From NCBI RefSeq assembly GCF_000021545.1, contig NC_012438.1, positions 1,300,003 to 1,364,002 on the forward strand: DNA of 64,000 nucleotides, read 5' to 3'. The position numbers were made by a program, and so were the translations under genes. The stretch is from Sulfurihydrogenibium azorense Az-Fu1. GTDB taxonomy: Bacteria; Aquificota; Aquificia; Aquificales; Hydrogenothermaceae. Below, in pieces: positions 26,003 to 63,041 of this stretch (position 1 is its first letter; each line of letters begins with the position of its first letter). Below the pieces are notes generated by a model. The model did not search any database. It was given only the letters and a program-made list of their open reading frames with translations, and was not told the DNA's origin.

Positions 26003-27103
26003 TGTATGAGTTCTATACATCGTGAACACCTTCACCTAAAAATTTTATCATACTCCATAAACAATGTCTGCTGGTCTTTTGTATCCTAAAGAATGATGTG
26101 GCCTTATAAAATTGTACTTCCTTACATACTTCCTTAACTTCTTATTCATCTCCTCTAATGTGTAATCTAATCCCTCTATCAACCATAACTCCTCTTCTAT
26201 TGTCCTTATCAATCTTTCTACAACACCATTAGTCTTTGGACTCCTTGGATAGCTAAAGTAATGCTCCACTCCTATATCCGTTAAATACTTGTTAAACTCC
26301 CCTAAAAACTCACTCCCGTTATCTGTTTGTACCCTCTTTATCTCAAATTCAAAATACTCATTTAACTCAATATAAAATTCTTTTGTTTTCTTTGAATTTT
26401 TACTTTCATATACCCGTGCAAAACAAAATCTGCTATACTTATCTATAGCTGTGAATTGGTAATATGTTGCACCTGCGATGTTCAGGTGTTTTACGTCTAT
26501 TTGTACTACATCCCCTGGGGCTTGTGCTTGCAAGCCTCTTTTTGTCCTTTTCTTCTTTATACTCTTTTTTCTTTTGTTTTGTATTTTAATTGATTTTGTT
26601 CTCTCTATTAATCCTTCTTCTTTTAATACTTTATACACTGTAGATGGTGATACTTTTATGTTTTTTTCTTCTTGTAGATATGCCGATATTTTTTCTTTGC
26701 TCCAAGTTGGGTTTTGTTTCCTGACTTTTATTATTTGTTCTCTGTACTGATTTCTTATAGTTGGTTTTCTTGTGTTTTTTGGTGTTTTAGGTCTATCAAG
26801 AAGTCCTTCAAGTCCGTCTTTTTTGTATCTTTCAAACCATTTATAGAAGGTAGTTCTTGATATTCCGAAGTATCTGCAGGTTTTGGATATATTTTTTGTA
26901 TCTTGGTAGTGCTGTATCCATTTTAGTCTTTTTTTGGCTTCTTTTGTTAAAGGAATGTCTTTAATCTTGTTTGATAGTTTTTTAGGAAAGAGTGTTGTCA
27001 TATACATAGGGGTTCCTATAATACCTTTCATATAACCTACCTCCTGTTTTTGTTGAAATTATTTTAAAGGGGTAGGTGTTCACTGTGTATTGAAACTTAT
27101 ACA
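26003..27103 (-). mobile_element. IS481-type insertion sequence, copy A (1101 bp)
   Basis: The element runs from TGTATGAGTTCTATACATCG at the left to its imperfect inverted repeat at the right, which on the minus strand starts TGTATAAGTTTCAATACAC. Both ends share GTGAACACCT and have TGT...ACA termini, as in IS481/IS3-type elements. It encodes one transposase and has a 5-bp direct repeat (TGAAT). An identical-looking 1101-bp copy in opposite orientation lies at 61941-63041. Confidence 0.95.
26048..27031 (-). CDS. IS481-type DDE transposase, copy A
   Basis: A 327-residue transposase. N-terminal helix-turn-helix segments (residues about 30-135, with CRYFGISRTTFYKWFERY) precede an rve integrase core with a DDE triad at D179 (QIDVKHL), D237 (VQTDNGSEF) and E272 (VVERLIRT); 35 residues separate the last two. 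The C-terminal YNFIRPHHSLGYKRPADIV block is typical of the group. It is a single frame, unlike most IS3 elements that need frameshifting. AGGAGG precedes ATG 27031. The frame is identical to the copy at 62013-62996, so the element is probably active or recently so. Confidence 0.95.
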   Translation of the reverse strand: MKGIIGTPMYMTTLFPKKLSNKIKDIPLTKEAKKRLKWIQHYQDTKNISKTCRYFGISRTTFYKWFERYKKDGLEGLLDRPKTPKNTRKPTIRNQYREQIIKVRKQNPTWSKEKISAYLQEEKNIKVSPSTVYKVLKEEGLIERTKSIKIQNKRKKSIKKKRTKRGLQAQAPGDVVQIDVKHLNIAGATYYQFTAIDKYSRFCFARVYESKNSKKTKEFYIELNEYFEFEIKRVQTDNGSEFLGEFNKYLTDIGVEHYFSYPRSPKTNGVVERLIRTIEEELWLIEGLDYTLEEMNKKLRKYVRKYNFIRPHHSLGYKRPADIVYGV

Positions 27104-32500: not shown

Positions 32501-35030
32501 TTAAATATTATACAACCTTTTAAAGATGAAAAACTCAAACCATTTTCTAATCTCTATTATAATAAAAGCTGCCATAAACGCTGAAAGTGGATACAACCAG
32601 TATTCAACAGGTATTGAAACACAGTGGAGGAAGTCAGGTAAAAGGTATATTAAAGCCACTTGAACAGGTAGTCCTACAAACGCCGTAGCTATGTATATGT
32701 AAGGATTTGCTTTAAAGTTTTCTAAAATATTGTAGAAAAATGGAAATTCCCTTACAGACTGCCAACCGTTTGCCCACTGAACAAATATAGTACTCAAAAA
32801 TGTCACCGTTATAGCTACTTCTAAAGAGGTGGTTTGTAGGAGATGATAGAACATTCCTACTATCATCAATCCCATTAGTATAGAAAAGTATAAAATTCTA
32901 AAAATTTGGATTTTATCAATAAACCAAACTGAGAAAGTCTTGGGTTTTAACTTAAATATCCAACTTTCTTCTTTTGAAAAGACTAACGTTTTATCCTGAA
33001 TTCCATCTGTTACTACGTTTATCCAGAGAATCTAGGTCGCATAAAGAGGTTGTGGAAGTGCTAAAACGACAGCAAAGAAAAGAAGAAATATTTCACTTAT
33101 ACCTGTTGAAAGTAAATAGCTGATTACTTTTCTAAGGTTATGAGATATTCTTCTACCTATTTTTATAGCATCTACTATAACCGATAAATCTCTCTCTAAA
33201 AGGATCATCTTCGCTACAGATTTTGTTGCTTGAGACCCTTCATTCATAGCAATTCCTAAATCTGCAGCTTTTACCGCCGGCATATCGTTAACTCCATCCC
33301 CCATCATTACAACCTCTTCACCAGCTGATTGTAGTATTTTTACTATTCTGTACTTATCCTCTGGTGTTGACCTTGCAACTACAGAAATGTTGTAAAGTAA
33401 ATCCTTTAACTCATCGTCTGTGTACTTTTCTAATTCTCTTCCTTCAACGGCTAATTTCCCTTCTTCATGTATACCAACCATTTTGGCAACAGCTACAGCT
33501 GTCTTTAAGTTGTCTCCCGTTATCATAATAACCCTTATTCCGGCCCCTTTAGCTGCCTTTACAGCATCTATTGCAGTCTGCTTTGGTGGGTCTAAAAATC
33601 CTACCAGTCCTACCAGTTTAATCTTAACTTTAGTTATATCATCTATAGGTTGATCTACAATTTGATAACCAAAGGCAAGTACCCTTAGTCCACTTTCTGC
33701 CATTTGGTCATGCTCTAATCTTAGTTTTTCTAAATCTTCTTTGTTTGCTGCTAACTTCTCTAAAGATTCAAAGGCTCCTTTTATAAATAAAATGTTTTTA
33801 TTTCCTAACTTTGTTAATAGAAGCCATAAGTTTTAATTTTGTGTCAAATGGGTAAAGTTTAACTCTTGGATTTTTTCCTCTTATATCTACATAGTCATAA
33901 CCGTTATCTTTAAGTCACTTTAACATTGCAGTCTCTATAGGATCTCCCTTTTCTATCTCCGAATCATTACACAAAGCAAAAACCAATGGAATAATCTCAT
34001 TATCTAAGGAGTATACCTTTTCGACTTTTAACTTATTCTCTGTTATCGTCCCTGTTTTATCGGTACAGATAAAGGTTGCACTTCCAAGGGATTCAACTGC
34101 AGGAAGCTGTCTAATAAGAGTTTTCTTTTTATAGAGTGTTATAGCTCCAACTACTAAAGCTATAGTAATCACTACAGGAAGTCCTTCGGGGACAGAAGAA
34201 ACAAGTTGAGCTATTATAAGCATAACAAGGGTTTTTAACTCTCTGCCTTGAATTAATCCTATAACAAAGATAAACGATAGAATAAGTACAAGTGTAATTA
34301 TTAATCTTTTTGAGAATGACCTTATTGACCTTGTTAGAGGCGTTTCTCTCTCTTTAATCTTTAATTTGGTGTATATTCTACCCATCTCTGTGTTTAGCCC
34401 AACGGCAAAAACAACAGCCTTTGCTACACCTTTAACAACGTAAGTTCCACCGTACCCTATATTTTCTCTCTCGTATATAGGTGTATCTTCAGGTAAAACT
34501 TTTTCTGCATGTTTTTCTACTGGTATAGACTCTCCTGTAAGAAGGGATTCATCTACTAAAAGATTGTTTGTTTCTATAAATCTAACATCTGCAGGGATAA
34601 CATCACCTTCTCTAAGAATAATTATATCCCCTACAGTAATATCTTCAGAAGACAGCTCAACAACCTTCCCATCTCTTAAAACTTCTACTTTGGGTATTGA
34701 TAACTGTAGAAGGTCTTTTATTTTTGTTTTTGCTTTGTACTCTTGATAGAAACCTATAAGACCATTGACAAAAACAATACCTACGATAAAGTAAAAATCT
34801 TTTAAATCTCCCAGATAAAGAGCTATAAATGATGCAAGTATAAGTATGAGGATTAAAGGATTTGTAAACTGTCTTATAAATATCTTTAATGTACTTTCTT
34901 CTTCTAACTCTATTTTGTTTTTACCATAAATCTTTAACCTTTTTTCTGCTTCTTGAGTAGATATCCCGTTTATTGAAGATTTAAGTTCTTCTAAGGCTTC
35001 TTCAATTGTTTTACTGTGCATTACTTTCAT
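32501..35030 (-). pseudogene. P-type cation-transporting ATPase, inactivated by two stops and a frameshift
   Basis: Minus-strand pieces line up into one P2-type (PMR1/SERCA-like, or related P3-like) ATPase: N-terminal domain with EGDVIPADVR and LLTGESIPVEK, the phosphorylation motif CDKTGTIT, then TGDN and GDGVNDMPAVKAADLGIAM, and C-terminal spans to 32501. Three lesions interrupt it. TGA at 33917-33915 sits where WLKDNGYDY would continue (TGG to TGA). A +1 shift lies near 33801-33810. TAG at 33034-33032 in LYAT*ILWINVVTDG replaces a Gln. All other sequence reads through, so inactivation is recent. The start is probably ATG 35030 with AGAGGAAAG. Confidence 0.92.
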
Positions 35031-35250
35031 CGTTTTTCTTTCCTCTTTGGACATTTTCTTGATTTTTCTTTACAAACCACATACTCGCTCCAAACATCAA
35101 GGCTACTCCTATTATGATAATGATACCTTCAATAAATGAGTTTGCATTGCAAAAAACACCAAATGAAGAGTAAGGGTCGCACTGTTTTAAGTCTGAAATA
35201 TCTAATGGATTTTTTTCTTCTACCTTTAAAATAAGGTTTAGAATATCCAT
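35011..35250 (-). CDS. Small single-span membrane protein upstream of ATPase pseudogene
   Basis: A 79-residue protein: an acidic N-terminal part with two cysteines (KQCDPYSSFGVFC), one transmembrane helix (about residues 42-60, IEGIIIIIGVALMFGASMWF) and a charged tail. I do not recognise it. It overlaps the 5' end of the ATPase pseudogene by about 20 bp and probably was its partner or leader gene, so it may also be dispensable now. It lies 9 bp behind the xer gene. Confidence 0.6.
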   Translation of the reverse strand: MDILNLILKVEEKNPLDISDLKQCDPYSSFGVFCNANSFIEGIIIIIGVALMFGASMWFVKKNQENVQRGKKNDESNAQ

Positions 35251-36155: not shown

Positions 36156-36725
36156 CTAACCTTCCCACCTTTTGTAAAGGTTATGTTCTACTTCAAAAAT
36201 ATCTAAAACTTTTCCTATAACAAAGTTTACCATATCATCTACTGTCTTTGGTTTATTGTAAAATCCCGGAGATGCAGAGGCTACTATACCACCTGCGAGC
36301 ATAACTTTTCTCATATTCTCAATGTGAATAAGAGAAAATGGCATCTCTCTAACAAGAAGTAAAAGTTTTTTTCTTTCCTTTAGTGCAACATCACAGACTC
36401 TCTGGATAAGGTTAGAACTTACTCCGTTTGCTACTGCTGCCAGTGTATCCATAGAGCAGGGAGCCACTATCACACCTTGGGTTTTAGTTAAGTACGACCC
36501 ACTTGATACAGAAGCTCCTATGTTTTGGTTTGATATAACTTCTACATTTTGGTTTAAACTTTTTAAAAAATCAGATTTAGTAATACCTTCTTCTTTTTCC
36601 ATTACAATGTAAGCTGCATTTGATACAACAAGGTGGACAAAGTGATTTTTAGATAGCTCTTCCACCAACCTTTTACCGTATATAAAACCACTTGCTCCAG
36701 TTATACAGACAACAAACTTTTTCAT
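36156..36725 (-). CDS. ubiX: Flavin prenyltransferase UbiX
   Basis: A 189-residue enzyme that prenylates FMN to make the cofactor of UbiD decarboxylases, for quinone synthesis or aromatic metabolism. The family blocks are VCITGASGFIYGKRLVEEL at the N-terminus, VIVAPCSMDTLAAVANGVSSNLIQRV, KLLLLVREMPFSLIHIENM and AGGIVASASPGFYNKP. The ATG sits 7 nt behind a TATCAT hexamer with no Shine-Dalgarno, suggesting a leaderless transcript (see 36726-36790). Its UbiD partner is not in the window. Confidence 0.94.
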   Translation of the reverse strand: MKKFVVCITGASGFIYGKRLVEELSKNHFVHLVVSNAAYIVMEKEEGITKSDFLKSLNQNVEVISNQNIGASVSSGSYLTKTQGVIVAPCSMDTLAAVANGVSSNLIQRVCDVALKERKKLLLLVREMPFSLIHIENMRKVMLAGGIVASASPGFYNKPKTVDDMVNFVIGKVLDIFEVEHNLYKRWEG

Positions 36726-36790
36726 AACTCATATGATAACACAAATTGGAAAAGCTTATAAGCCCCCTTTTTTATGTTATCATATCTTAT
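36726..36790. promoter_or_regulatory. Mirrored divergent promoters of ubiX and rsmD
   Basis: The 65-bp gap carries a perfect 11-bp inverted repeat: ATATGATAACA at 36731-36741 and TGTTATCATAT at 36775-36785. Each copy stands exactly 5 nt from the ATG of its gene. The TATCAT inside fits a -10 (TANNNT) with the start-codon A at +1, so both genes are probably transcribed leaderless from one shared region. There is no ribosome site before either ATG. Confidence 0.6.
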
Positions 36791-37258
36791 ATGAGAGATT
36801 TAAGACCAACATCTAACTTAGTATTACAGGCTATTTTTAACATACTTTACTCTGTTAAAGGTAAGGATTTTTTAGACCTTTTTGCTGGAACAGGACAGGT
36901 AGGATTAAAGGCTCTGGAAAAAGGTGGAAAGTCTGTTGTTTTTGTTGATATAGAGAGAAAAAGAGTAGAGAATATAAAGAAAAAAGCAAAAAATTACCAA
37001 AATGCCAAATTTGTAGTTTCAGATGCTTTAAAGTTTTTAAAAACAGCTAACTCTTTTGATATAATCTTTGCTGATCCTCCTTACGATTACAAGTTTTATG
37101 ATAAACTTATACAGCTATCATTTGAAGCTTTAAAAGAAGGTGGAATCTTGATAGTAGAGCATAGGTCAAACAACGACTTAAGTGGTATTCTACCTGATTA
37201 CTTTTTAGAAAGTAGAAAGTACGGAGATACTGTAATATCTTTCTGGAGAAAGGAATGA
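36791..37258 (+). CDS. rsmD: 16S rRNA (guanine-966-N2)-methyltransferase, RsmD-like
   Basis: A 155-residue methyltransferase beginning MRDLRPTSNLVLQAIFNIL, the usual RPTS...FNIL entry of RsmD. It has a SAM-binding LDLFAGTGQVGLKAL loop, VVFVDIERKRV and the catalytic ADPPYDY motif. It lacks the first 15-20 residues (the RIIxGxxxGRxL strand) of common RsmD proteins. ATG 36791 is chosen from the -10/ATG spacing; a TTG 45 bp upstream (36746) lies inside the promoter region. It overlaps coaD by 4 bases. Confidence 0.88.
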   Translation: MRDLRPTSNLVLQAIFNILYSVKGKDFLDLFAGTGQVGLKALEKGGKSVVFVDIERKRVENIKKKAKNYQNAKFVVSDALKFLKTANSFDIIFADPPYDYKFYDKLIQLSFEALKEGGILIVEHRSNNDLSGILPDYFLESRKYGDTVISFWRKE

Positions 37259-37755
37259 CAACAAAGGTATGTGTATATCCAGGAACATTTGACCCTGTTC
37301 ACTTTGGCCATCTTGACATAGTTGACAGGGCACTTAACATATTTGAGACGGTTGTGGTAGCGATTGCAGAAAACCCCAAGAAAGAGCCATTTTTTTCTCT
37401 TGAAGAAAGGATAAAGATGTTCCAAGATGCCGTAAGTAAGTACAAAGGAAGAGTTATAGTAGAAGGATTCTCCGGTTTACTTGTCGACTTTGCAAGAAAA
37501 TACAACACAAAGATTATAATAAGAGGTGTGAGACTTTTTACAGATTTTGAGTATGAACTTCAGATAGCCATGACAAACTACAAATTAGACAAAGTAGAGA
37601 CATTTTTTATGATGCCACAACAAGAACTTATACACATAAGTTCCTCGATAGTAAAAGATGTGGCAATACATGGTGGAGATATAAGTAGTATGGTTACTCC
37701 CTTTGTAAAAAGTATGTTAGAAGAGAAGGTAAAGACACTATGGAAAAACTCTTAA
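37255..37755 (+). CDS. coaD: Phosphopantetheine adenylyltransferase
   Basis: A 166-residue nucleotidyltransferase that forms dephospho-CoA from phosphopantetheine and ATP, the penultimate CoA step. The PGTFDPVHFGHLDI block contains the HxGH motif, followed by KKEPFFSLEERIKM, FSGLLVDFA, RGVRLFTDFEYELQIA and the ISSSIVKDVA motif. Normal length. ATG overlaps the rsmD stop (ATGA), and rsmD-coaD pairing is common in bacteria. Confidence 0.97.
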   Translation: MTTKVCVYPGTFDPVHFGHLDIVDRALNIFETVVVAIAENPKKEPFFSLEERIKMFQDAVSKYKGRVIVEGFSGLLVDFARKYNTKIIIRGVRLFTDFEYELQIAMTNYKLDKVETFFMMPQQELIHISSSIVKDVAIHGGDISSMVTPFVKSMLEEKVKTLWKNS

Positions 37756-39216: not shown

Positions 39217-39948
39217 ATGGAAAAATCAAAACTTGAGCTTAAAAACATTGAAAAAAGTTTTAAAGGTAGAACTGTAGTAGCAGGAGTATCTCTTTACGCA
39301 GAGGAAGGAGAGATAGTAGGACTCCTTGGACCAAACGGAGCTGGAAAAACTACTACCTTTAAGTGTCTTTTAGGTTTCTTAAAACCAGACAGGGGAAATG
39401 TAGTATTAAACGGTGAAGATATAACAAATCTACCAGTATATAAAAGGGCAAAAAAAGGTATAAGTTTTCTACCTCAAGAGTCTTCTATATTTAGAGATTT
39501 AACTGTTTGGGAAAATCTAATGATGTTTTTAGAATTTCAAGATATCTCTCCATCTGAAAGGGAGAGAAAAGCAAAAGACCTTTTAGAAGAGTTTCATATC
39601 CTCCATCTAAAAGACCAGAAGGCATCAACTCTTTCCGGAGGAGAGAGAAGAAGGTTAGAAATAGCCAGAAGTCTCATAACAAACCCTTCTTTTTTACTTT
39701 TAGATGAACCGTTTGCAGGAGTTGACCCTGTTTCAGTAAAGGAGATAAACTCTCTTATAAAGTCTTTGGTGGAGAAAGAGATAGGTGTTATAATCACAGA
39801 CCACAACGTAAGAGAAACACTAAAAATAACAGACAGAGCTTACATAATAGCCCACGGTAAAGTAATAGCAGAAGGAACACCTCAAGAAATCGTAGAAAAC
39901 GAAGAAGTAAGAAAAGTCTTCTTGGGAGAAGACTTCGTTTTAATTTAG
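39217..39948 (+). CDS. lptB: LPS export ABC transporter ATP-binding protein
   Basis: A 243-residue ATPase driving LPS extraction from the inner membrane with LptFG. Walker A GPNGAGKTTT (residues about 38-47), the Q-loop PQESSIFRDLTVWEN, signature LSGGERRRLEIAR, Walker B LLLDEPFAGVDP and switch His in ITDHNVRETL are all intact. The SIFRDLTVWENL stretch is characteristic of LptB. Its neighbours lptE and holA support the assignment. Its stop overlaps the convergent DUF6394 gene by 4 bp. Confidence 0.95.
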   Translation: MEKSKLELKNIEKSFKGRTVVAGVSLYAEEGEIVGLLGPNGAGKTTTFKCLLGFLKPDRGNVVLNGEDITNLPVYKRAKKGISFLPQESSIFRDLTVWENLMMFLEFQDISPSERERKAKDLLEEFHILHLKDQKASTLSGGERRRLEIARSLITNPSFLLLDEPFAGVDPVSVKEINSLIKSLVEKEIGVIITDHNVRETLKITDRAYIIAHGKVIAEGTPQEIVENEEVRKVFLGEDFVLI

Positions 39949-61940: not shown

Positions 61941-63041
61941 TGTATAAGTTTCAATACACAGTGAACACCTACCCCTTTAAAATAATTTCAACAAAAACAG
62001 GAGGTAGGTTATATGAAAGGTATTATAGGAACCCCTATGTATATGACAACACTCTTTCCTAAAAAACTATCAAACAAGATTAAAGACATTCCTTTAACAA
62101 AAGAAGCCAAAAAAAGACTAAAATGGATACAGCACTACCAAGATACAAAAAATATATCCAAAACCTGCAGATACTTCGGAATATCAAGAACTACCTTCTA
62201 TAAATGGTTTGAAAGATACAAAAAAGACGGACTTGAAGGACTTCTTGATAGACCTAAAACACCAAAAAACACAAGAAAACCAACTATAAGAAATCAGTAC
62301 AGAGAACAAATAATAAAAGTCAGGAAACAAAACCCAACTTGGAGCAAAGAAAAAATATCGGCATATCTACAAGAAGAAAAAAACATAAAAGTATCACCAT
62401 CTACAGTGTATAAAGTATTAAAAGAAGAAGGATTAATAGAGAGAACAAAATCAATTAAAATACAAAACAAAAGAAAAAAGAGTATAAAGAAGAAAAGGAC
62501 AAAAAGAGGCTTGCAAGCACAAGCCCCAGGGGATGTAGTACAAATAGACGTAAAACACCTGAACATCGCAGGTGCAACATATTACCAATTCACAGCTATA
62601 GATAAGTATAGCAGATTTTGTTTTGCACGGGTATATGAAAGTAAAAATTCAAAGAAAACAAAAGAATTTTATATTGAGTTAAATGAGTATTTTGAATTTG
62701 AGATAAAGAGGGTACAAACAGATAACGGGAGTGAGTTTTTAGGGGAGTTTAACAAGTATTTAACGGATATAGGAGTGGAGCATTACTTTAGCTATCCAAG
62801 GAGTCCAAAGACTAATGGTGTTGTAGAAAGATTGATAAGGACAATAGAAGAGGAGTTATGGTTGATAGAGGGATTAGATTACACATTAGAGGAGATGAAT
62901 AAGAAGTTAAGGAAGTATGTAAGGAAGTACAATTTTATAAGGCCACATCATTCTTTAGGATACAAAAGACCAGCAGACATTGTTTATGGAGTATGATAAA
63001 ATTTTTAGGTGAAGGTGTTCACGATGTATAGAACTCATACA
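61941..63041 (+). mobile_element. IS481-type insertion sequence, copy B (1101 bp)
   Basis: Same length and ends as copy A (26003-27103) in opposite orientation: TGTATAAGTTTCAATACAC at the left and CTCATACA at the right. Flanking bases are ...AACCCA and TCTTCTT..., which do not repeat, so a target duplication is absent. It separates the FNR-type box from the rest of the nor operon. Confidence 0.95.
62013..62996 (+). CDS. IS481-type DDE transposase, copy B
   Basis: The protein is identical to copy A (327 residues, D179, D237, E272, N-terminal helix-turn-helix, C-terminal PHHSLGYKRPADIV). AGGAGG sits before the ATG. It reads away from the nor operon, on the opposite strand. The perfect identity over 327 codons points to very recent movement. 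Confidence 0.95.
   Translation: MKGIIGTPMYMTTLFPKKLSNKIKDIPLTKEAKKRLKWIQHYQDTKNISKTCRYFGISRTTFYKWFERYKKDGLEGLLDRPKTPKNTRKPTIRNQYREQIIKVRKQNPTWSKEKISAYLQEEKNIKVSPSTVYKVLKEEGLIERTKSIKIQNKRKKSIKKKRTKRGLQAQAPGDVVQIDVKHLNIAGATYYQFTAIDKYSRFCFARVYESKNSKKTKEFYIELNEYFEFEIKRVQTDNGSEFLGEFNKYLTDIGVEHYFSYPRSPKTNGVVERLIRTIEEELWLIEGLDYTLEEMNKKLRKYVRKYNFIRPHHSLGYKRPADIVYGV

Follow-up and report, generated by a model that had tools for sequence, protein, structure and literature searches.

Extended −10 elements at leaderless spacing before the divergent ubiX and rsmD start codons of Sulfurihydrogenibium azorense: two predicted leaderless promoters and an unconserved mirror symmetry

Introduction

Extended −10 promoters carry a TG one base before the hexamer, and their −35 is weak or absent. 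The intergenic region between the divergent ubiX and rsmD genes of Sulfurihydrogenibium azorense Az-Fu1 resembles them in both respects, the difference being that here the position of the element is set by the start codon.

A second comparison is with TA-led leaderless genes. Passages of Zheng et al. 2011 (PMC3160421) report leaderless genes in two of five Aquificae genomes, give a share of 20.7–32.4% for those two, and list Aquifex aeolicus among the examples. As that class is described there, the likeness lies in the −10-like signal about 12 bp upstream (counted from the first T of TANNNT) and in the lack of a Shine-Dalgarno (SD) sequence; what differs is that we find two divergent genes, both with extended −10s, and that one of them, rsmD, recurs in leaderless-type form in two families (PMC3160421). 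A paper on the Aquificales calls the SD well conserved, and the word ‘leaderless’ does not occur in its text (PMC4227106). The literature that we searched contained no paper mentioning leaderless genes together with Sulfurihydrogenibium.

A third comparison is with bidirectional promoters built on a symmetric −10, where, in the sections of Warman et al. drawn on here, occupancy in one direction excludes the other (PMC12825309). Divergent transcription from symmetric DNA would be common to both; there, one −10 is shared and the starts lie beside or within it, whereas ubiX and rsmD have two −10s 39 bp apart (PMC12825309). No single shared −10 is found between these genes; rather, there are two, at 36733–36738 and 36778–36783.

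Results

Two extended −10 elements stand back to back between ubiX and rsmD

We analysed a 64,000-nt stretch, the window (G000:C1:1300003-1364002), of a genome of 1,640,877 bases. Within it, ubiX (minus) and rsmD (plus) diverge from a 65-nt intergenic region, with the following features:

36156–36725, minus: ubiX, UbiX family flavin prenyltransferase (NF004685 and TIGR00421 above cut-offs), predicted leaderless
36725, minus: predicted transcription start of ubiX, the A of its ATG, from the −10 spacing
36731–36741, no strand: left arm of a perfect 11-bp inverted repeat, ATATGATAACA
36733–36741, minus: extended −10 of ubiX, TGTTATCAT, from sequence, 7 nt to the ATG
36775–36785, no strand: right arm of the repeat, TGTTATCATAT
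36775–36783, plus: extended −10 of rsmD, TGTTATCAT, from sequence, 7 nt to the ATG
36791, plus: predicted transcription start of rsmD, the A of its ATG, from the −10 spacing
36791–37258, plus: rsmD, 16S rRNA G966 N2-methyltransferase family, N-terminally short (PF03602 above cut-off), predicted leaderless

The end of rsmD overlaps coaD (37255–37755). An earlier, sequence-only reading of this DNA had described the perfect 11-bp repeat, and the sequence bears it out: the arms are separated by a 33-nt spacer, each lies 5 nt from its divergent ATG (that of ubiX ends at 36725 on the minus strand, that of rsmD begins at 36791), and read towards each gene the arm is TGTTATCATAT. The same reading correctly placed a TATCAT 7 nt ahead of both starts (36733–36738 on the minus strand, 36778–36783 on the plus strand), a TANNNT spaced for transcription to begin on the start codon at both genes. 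It had also held that neither gene has an SD, and indeed none of GGAG, GAGG, AGGA or AAGG occurs in the −16 to −4 region of either. What it overlooked is the TGT that precedes both hexamers and makes each an extended −10, TGTTATCAT (TGT-TATCAT). A scan of the intergenic centre found no −35.

We consider it likely that this region holds two independent extended −10 promoters, each initiating at the first base of its own start codon, so that the ubiX and rsmD mRNAs are predicted to be leaderless. In this model, two sigma-70-type extended −10s, arranged back to back and lacking a recognisable −35, would each recruit RNA polymerase without the help of a strong −35, and the resulting transcripts, whose 5′ ends would coincide with the start codons, would be started by ribosomes with initiator tRNA instead of SD pairing. 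The perfect mirror would then arise from two close matches to a single consensus, placed at the same allowed distance from their start codons, with no joint operator. Because the two predicted starts are only 66 bp apart and two polymerases hardly fit there together, ubiX and rsmD would probably compete for polymerase.

The rsmD element recurs in two families

Some rsmD match is present in 39 of 41 genomes of family f1, although certain of these matches are not genuine or complete rsmD genes; 34 rows were used, and one (L064) was dropped as having no upstream DNA, leaving 33. As the start we took the nearest ATG upstream of the RPTS motif or, where there was none, the nearest other start. A start further upstream, a TTG 19 codons before the motif, was rejected on the ground that 26 of the 34 rows have no candidate upstream of the chosen start.

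By this rule, and with all ubiX and rsmD counts taken over related rows without regard to kinship, TAWNAT stands 6–7 nt before rsmD in 17/33 rows of f1 (TG-extended in 15/33) and 8–9 nt before it in four more; 16/33 rows lack an element at 6–7 nt, and an SD tetramer occurs in 5/33. Outside f1 we chose 18 places, 14 from the 64 f2 genomes and 4 from the 7 f3 genomes searched; with one row without the motif (L141) and one without a start (L147), 12 usable rows remained for f2 and 4 for f3. In the second family, f2, TAWNAT lies at 6–7 nt in 8/12 and at 8 nt in the other four, hence in 12/12 at 6–8 nt, the 8-nt gap being a value accepted post hoc, once the data had been seen. None of the 4 rows of f3 has TAWNAT at leaderless spacing. 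Counted by genus, the element at 6–7 nt is found in 5/10 genera of f1 and 5/8 of f2 (8/8 counting 8 nt). Two species of the same genus (G035 and G037; L042 and L043) begin rsmD with TTG behind an SD, CAGGAGAGAAT, and their ubiX retains a leaderless-type −10.

Upstream of rsmD in f2 (L130–L140) we also noticed a divergent SD-led gene starting MxKxLGLHI, in 11/12 usable rows, which we take to be SpeD-like. In 7/12 usable rows the rsmD −10 of f2 is itself a palindrome, ATTATAAT, that could serve both directions.

The ubiX element recurs within family f1 and in none of 17 rows outside it

Before ubiX, 13/38 rows of f1 carry TAWNAT at 6–7 nt. TGnCATAAT at 6 nt adds 8 further rows, all of genus g8, and with this form, accepted post hoc once the data had been seen, a −10 at leaderless spacing is found in 21/38 rows and missing from 17/38. 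The extended form at gap 6–7 occurs in 15/38 rows and an SD tetramer in 8/38; 27/38 rows have no candidate start upstream of the chosen one. Among the 18 places fetched outside f1, of which one (L160) lacked the motif, a −10 at leaderless spacing was found before ubiX in 0/17 (0/14 in f2 and 0/3 in f3).

A short RsmD accompanies the element in much of f1 and f2

The RsmD protein itself departs from the full-length form. Against the equivalog model TIGR00095 it scores 95.5 bits, below the cut-off of 117.5, and matches only profile positions 30–193, with positions 1–29 missing. Within the order, the PF03602 match of the listed rsmD rows starts at profile position 6–20; in the outgroup, drawn from the same class but from outside this order, it begins at position 1 in 20/20 genomes with a hit. 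We read 16 of these 20 (one from f4, fifteen from f5): 16/16 start MxxxGG, like full-length RsmD, 15/16 have an SD tetramer and the remaining one a G-rich stretch, and 0/16 carry TAWNAT at 6–8 nt. The SD-led long RsmD is probably the ancestral form. Over much of f1 and f2, short RsmD and the leaderless-type promoter co-occur, but the link is not strict, since in f3 RsmD is short and the element absent.

Comparator genes and genome-wide counts

Other genes of the same loci, scored by the same rule, have the plain −10 in 3/158 cases and the extended form in 0/158. Only two genes that look leaderless in the source genome, hemA and yggS, served as comparators, at 30 loci each. hemA has the element in 3/30, namely those with the closest protein, and an SD in 20/30; yggS, with one row dropped, has it in 0/29 by the strict pattern and an SD in 23/29, and even the yggS of the source genome shows only the looser form TGTTAAACT.

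Within the source genome, 222 sampled genes have at least 40 nt free upstream, ubiX and rsmD included. The extended −10 lies at gaps 6–7 in 7/222, with 0–2 at each other gap; plain TAWNAT lies there in 9/222, with 0–6 at each other single gap. A clear peak at gaps 6–7 therefore exists for the extended form only, the plain form not being clearly above gaps further out. Over the whole genome, TGnTATnAT-N7-ATG occurs 18 times against 4 in the reversed control, and TGnTATnAT-N6-ATG 9 times against 6. An SD tetramer precedes 249/424 sampled genes, a figure scored from the first ATG and blurred by start errors. Leaderless-type genes are a small minority here (extended −10, 7/222), compared with the 20.7–32.4% that the passages cited above give for two Aquificae genomes (PMC3160421).

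We also observed an extended −10-like TGGTAAAAT 7 nt before the ATG of lptB (window position 39217), lying across the end of the upstream gene.

The mirror symmetry is not kept in relatives

Upon examination of the three other genomes of the genus that hold both genes in one contig region (G034, G036 and G038), we found the perfect symmetry gone in every one. G038 has TGTTATCATAT before ubiX and TGTTATTATAT before rsmD, both at gap 7 and 3.1 kb apart; between the genes lie two large minus-strand open frames of 454 and 462 aa, whose CxxCH motifs suggest to us cytochrome-like proteins. The elements of G034 are TGTTATGATAT (ubiX, gap 10) and TGCTATCATAT (rsmD, gap 6), and those of G036, each at gap 9, are TGTTATTAT and TGTTAAACT. 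In the other f1 genomes that list both genes, the two are either on separate contigs or separated by more than 100 kb, although the former, in drafts, does not strictly exclude closeness. The conserved feature, as judged from the sequences compared, is the predicted −10 near the start and not the symmetry.

How unusual the mirror is depends on the background. When the 65-nt intergenic region was shuffled 20,000 times with its dinucleotides preserved, a perfect inverted repeat of 11 bp or more arose somewhere in 18 shuffles and one mirrored about the middle in none. Real divergent intergenic regions (20–400 nt) in a 464-kb sample, made up of the window and 20 further stretches of the genome, contain such a repeat in 4/32 cases, mirrored to both starts only at ubiX/rsmD. 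The exact 11-mer has 6 copies in the genome, two of them the ubiX/rsmD site; 4.9 are expected from base composition and 1.5 from dinucleotides, a slight excess over the latter and none over the former, and the reversed control pattern has 0. The four other copies lie one each in open frames of 638, 559 and 139 codons and one outside such frames. With up to one mismatch allowed, there are 9 copies in the window, where shuffles average 2.1. When 15 ubiX elements of the family were paired with 15 rsmD elements, 2 of the 225 pairs were identical over 11 positions, 19 had one difference, and 85 had the same gap. The identity of the two arms is less odd because both genes already carry extended −10s, and the mirror image of the two promoters is probably due to chance.

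Two one-mismatch copies of the 11-mer, at window positions 26993–27003 (plus) and 62041–62051 (minus), are each embedded in the same sequence of 100 nt or more, so that a longer repeat, perhaps a mobile element, is present twice in the window.

Discussion

The sequence-only reading had left two possibilities, that both genes are leaderless or that the repeats are operators that block both, and had named missing symmetry in relatives among the findings that would refute it. The symmetry is indeed missing. This strips the mirror of its meaning and leaves the case for leaderless promoters standing: ‘both leaderless’ gains support because the −10 at leaderless spacing recurs for each gene, even where the two are unlinked, and the operator reading loses it with the symmetry in G034, G036 and G038.

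A different account accepts the promoters as real and supposes a very short leader of 2–6 nt, or an A/T-rich stretch that aids translation through ribosomal protein S1, so that the mRNAs would not be strictly leaderless. Gaps of 8–10 nt in several relatives point that way (the ubiX −10 sits 9–10 nt from the ATG in G034 and G036, which makes a leader of 2–4 nt possible there), as does the statement, in a survey (PMC5397173), that A/T bias near −10 in non-SD genes is not to be ascribed simply to leaderless mRNAs. The commonest gaps are 6–7 nt, however, and they come with the TG of an extended −10, for which a translation signal has no need. We regard this account as unlikely.

A single operator, on both arms of which a dimeric repressor would shut off ubiX and rsmD together, would explain why no shuffle (0/20,000) reproduced a perfect 11-bp repeat placed symmetrically to both starts and why the 11-mer exceeds its dinucleotide expectation (6 copies against 1.5, with 0 for the reversed control). 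It fits poorly with the relatives G034, G036 and G038, in which the arms no longer match or have moved and, in the last, stand 3.1 kb apart, and with the other family genomes, in which the genes are unlinked and the element is often retained; three of the four other 11-mer copies, moreover, sit inside open frames whose lengths run from 139 to 638 codons. With symmetry, spacing and adjacency all unkept, and a test for palindromic half-site symmetry failing in the same three genomes, we rejected a shared operator as very improbable. A wider 11-mer regulon was rejected as well, the exact-match search having yielded 6 copies, two at the ubiX/rsmD site itself and three of the rest in open frames. 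That the repeat is a hairpin, cruciform or terminator remnant is hardly credible and was rejected: the 65 nt do fold as single-stranded DNA at −7.7 kcal/mol (z −3.25; 1/200 shuffles as good), but the fold merely reflects the repeat, the arms do not co-vary in relatives, and no terminator-like site was found in 36400–37100.

Two independent, predicted leaderless promoters are thus our preferred reading. The locus would be an unusually recurrent instance of leaderless genes already reported in bulk for the Aquificae, and the recurrence at rsmD appears, within the literature searched, to be the new part. Leaderless genes have mostly been counted in bulk, and our comparators, hemA and yggS, change easily between species. 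In rsmD, by contrast, a leaderless-type start is kept in two families, and the enzymes of its product family modify the part of the ribosome where initiator tRNA sits (the P site), so that the gene offers a specific example on which to ask whether leaderlessness can be selected for a function. The reading of the locus is also corrected, its eye-catching mirror being the unconserved part.

A review (PMC7949028) describes two nucleotides, G966 and C967, that RsmD and RsmB methylate and that stack on C34 of initiator tRNA, and states that bacterial leaderless mRNAs mostly recruit 70S ribosomes; together these make feedback on rsmD thinkable. In the full form of this proposal, which we hold to be improbable, leaderless initiation would need the contact between G966 and initiator tRNA, and this need would have kept rsmD leaderless in much of the order; undermethylated ribosomes would translate the rsmD mRNA differently, in a feedback that senses its own product, and the loss of the RsmD N-terminus would be part of the same change.

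Elsewhere in the window, on the minus strand at 33032–35054, the open frames 33032–33703 and 33915–35054 look, by eye, like fragments of a single P-type ATPase, whose gene may be broken or frameshifted.
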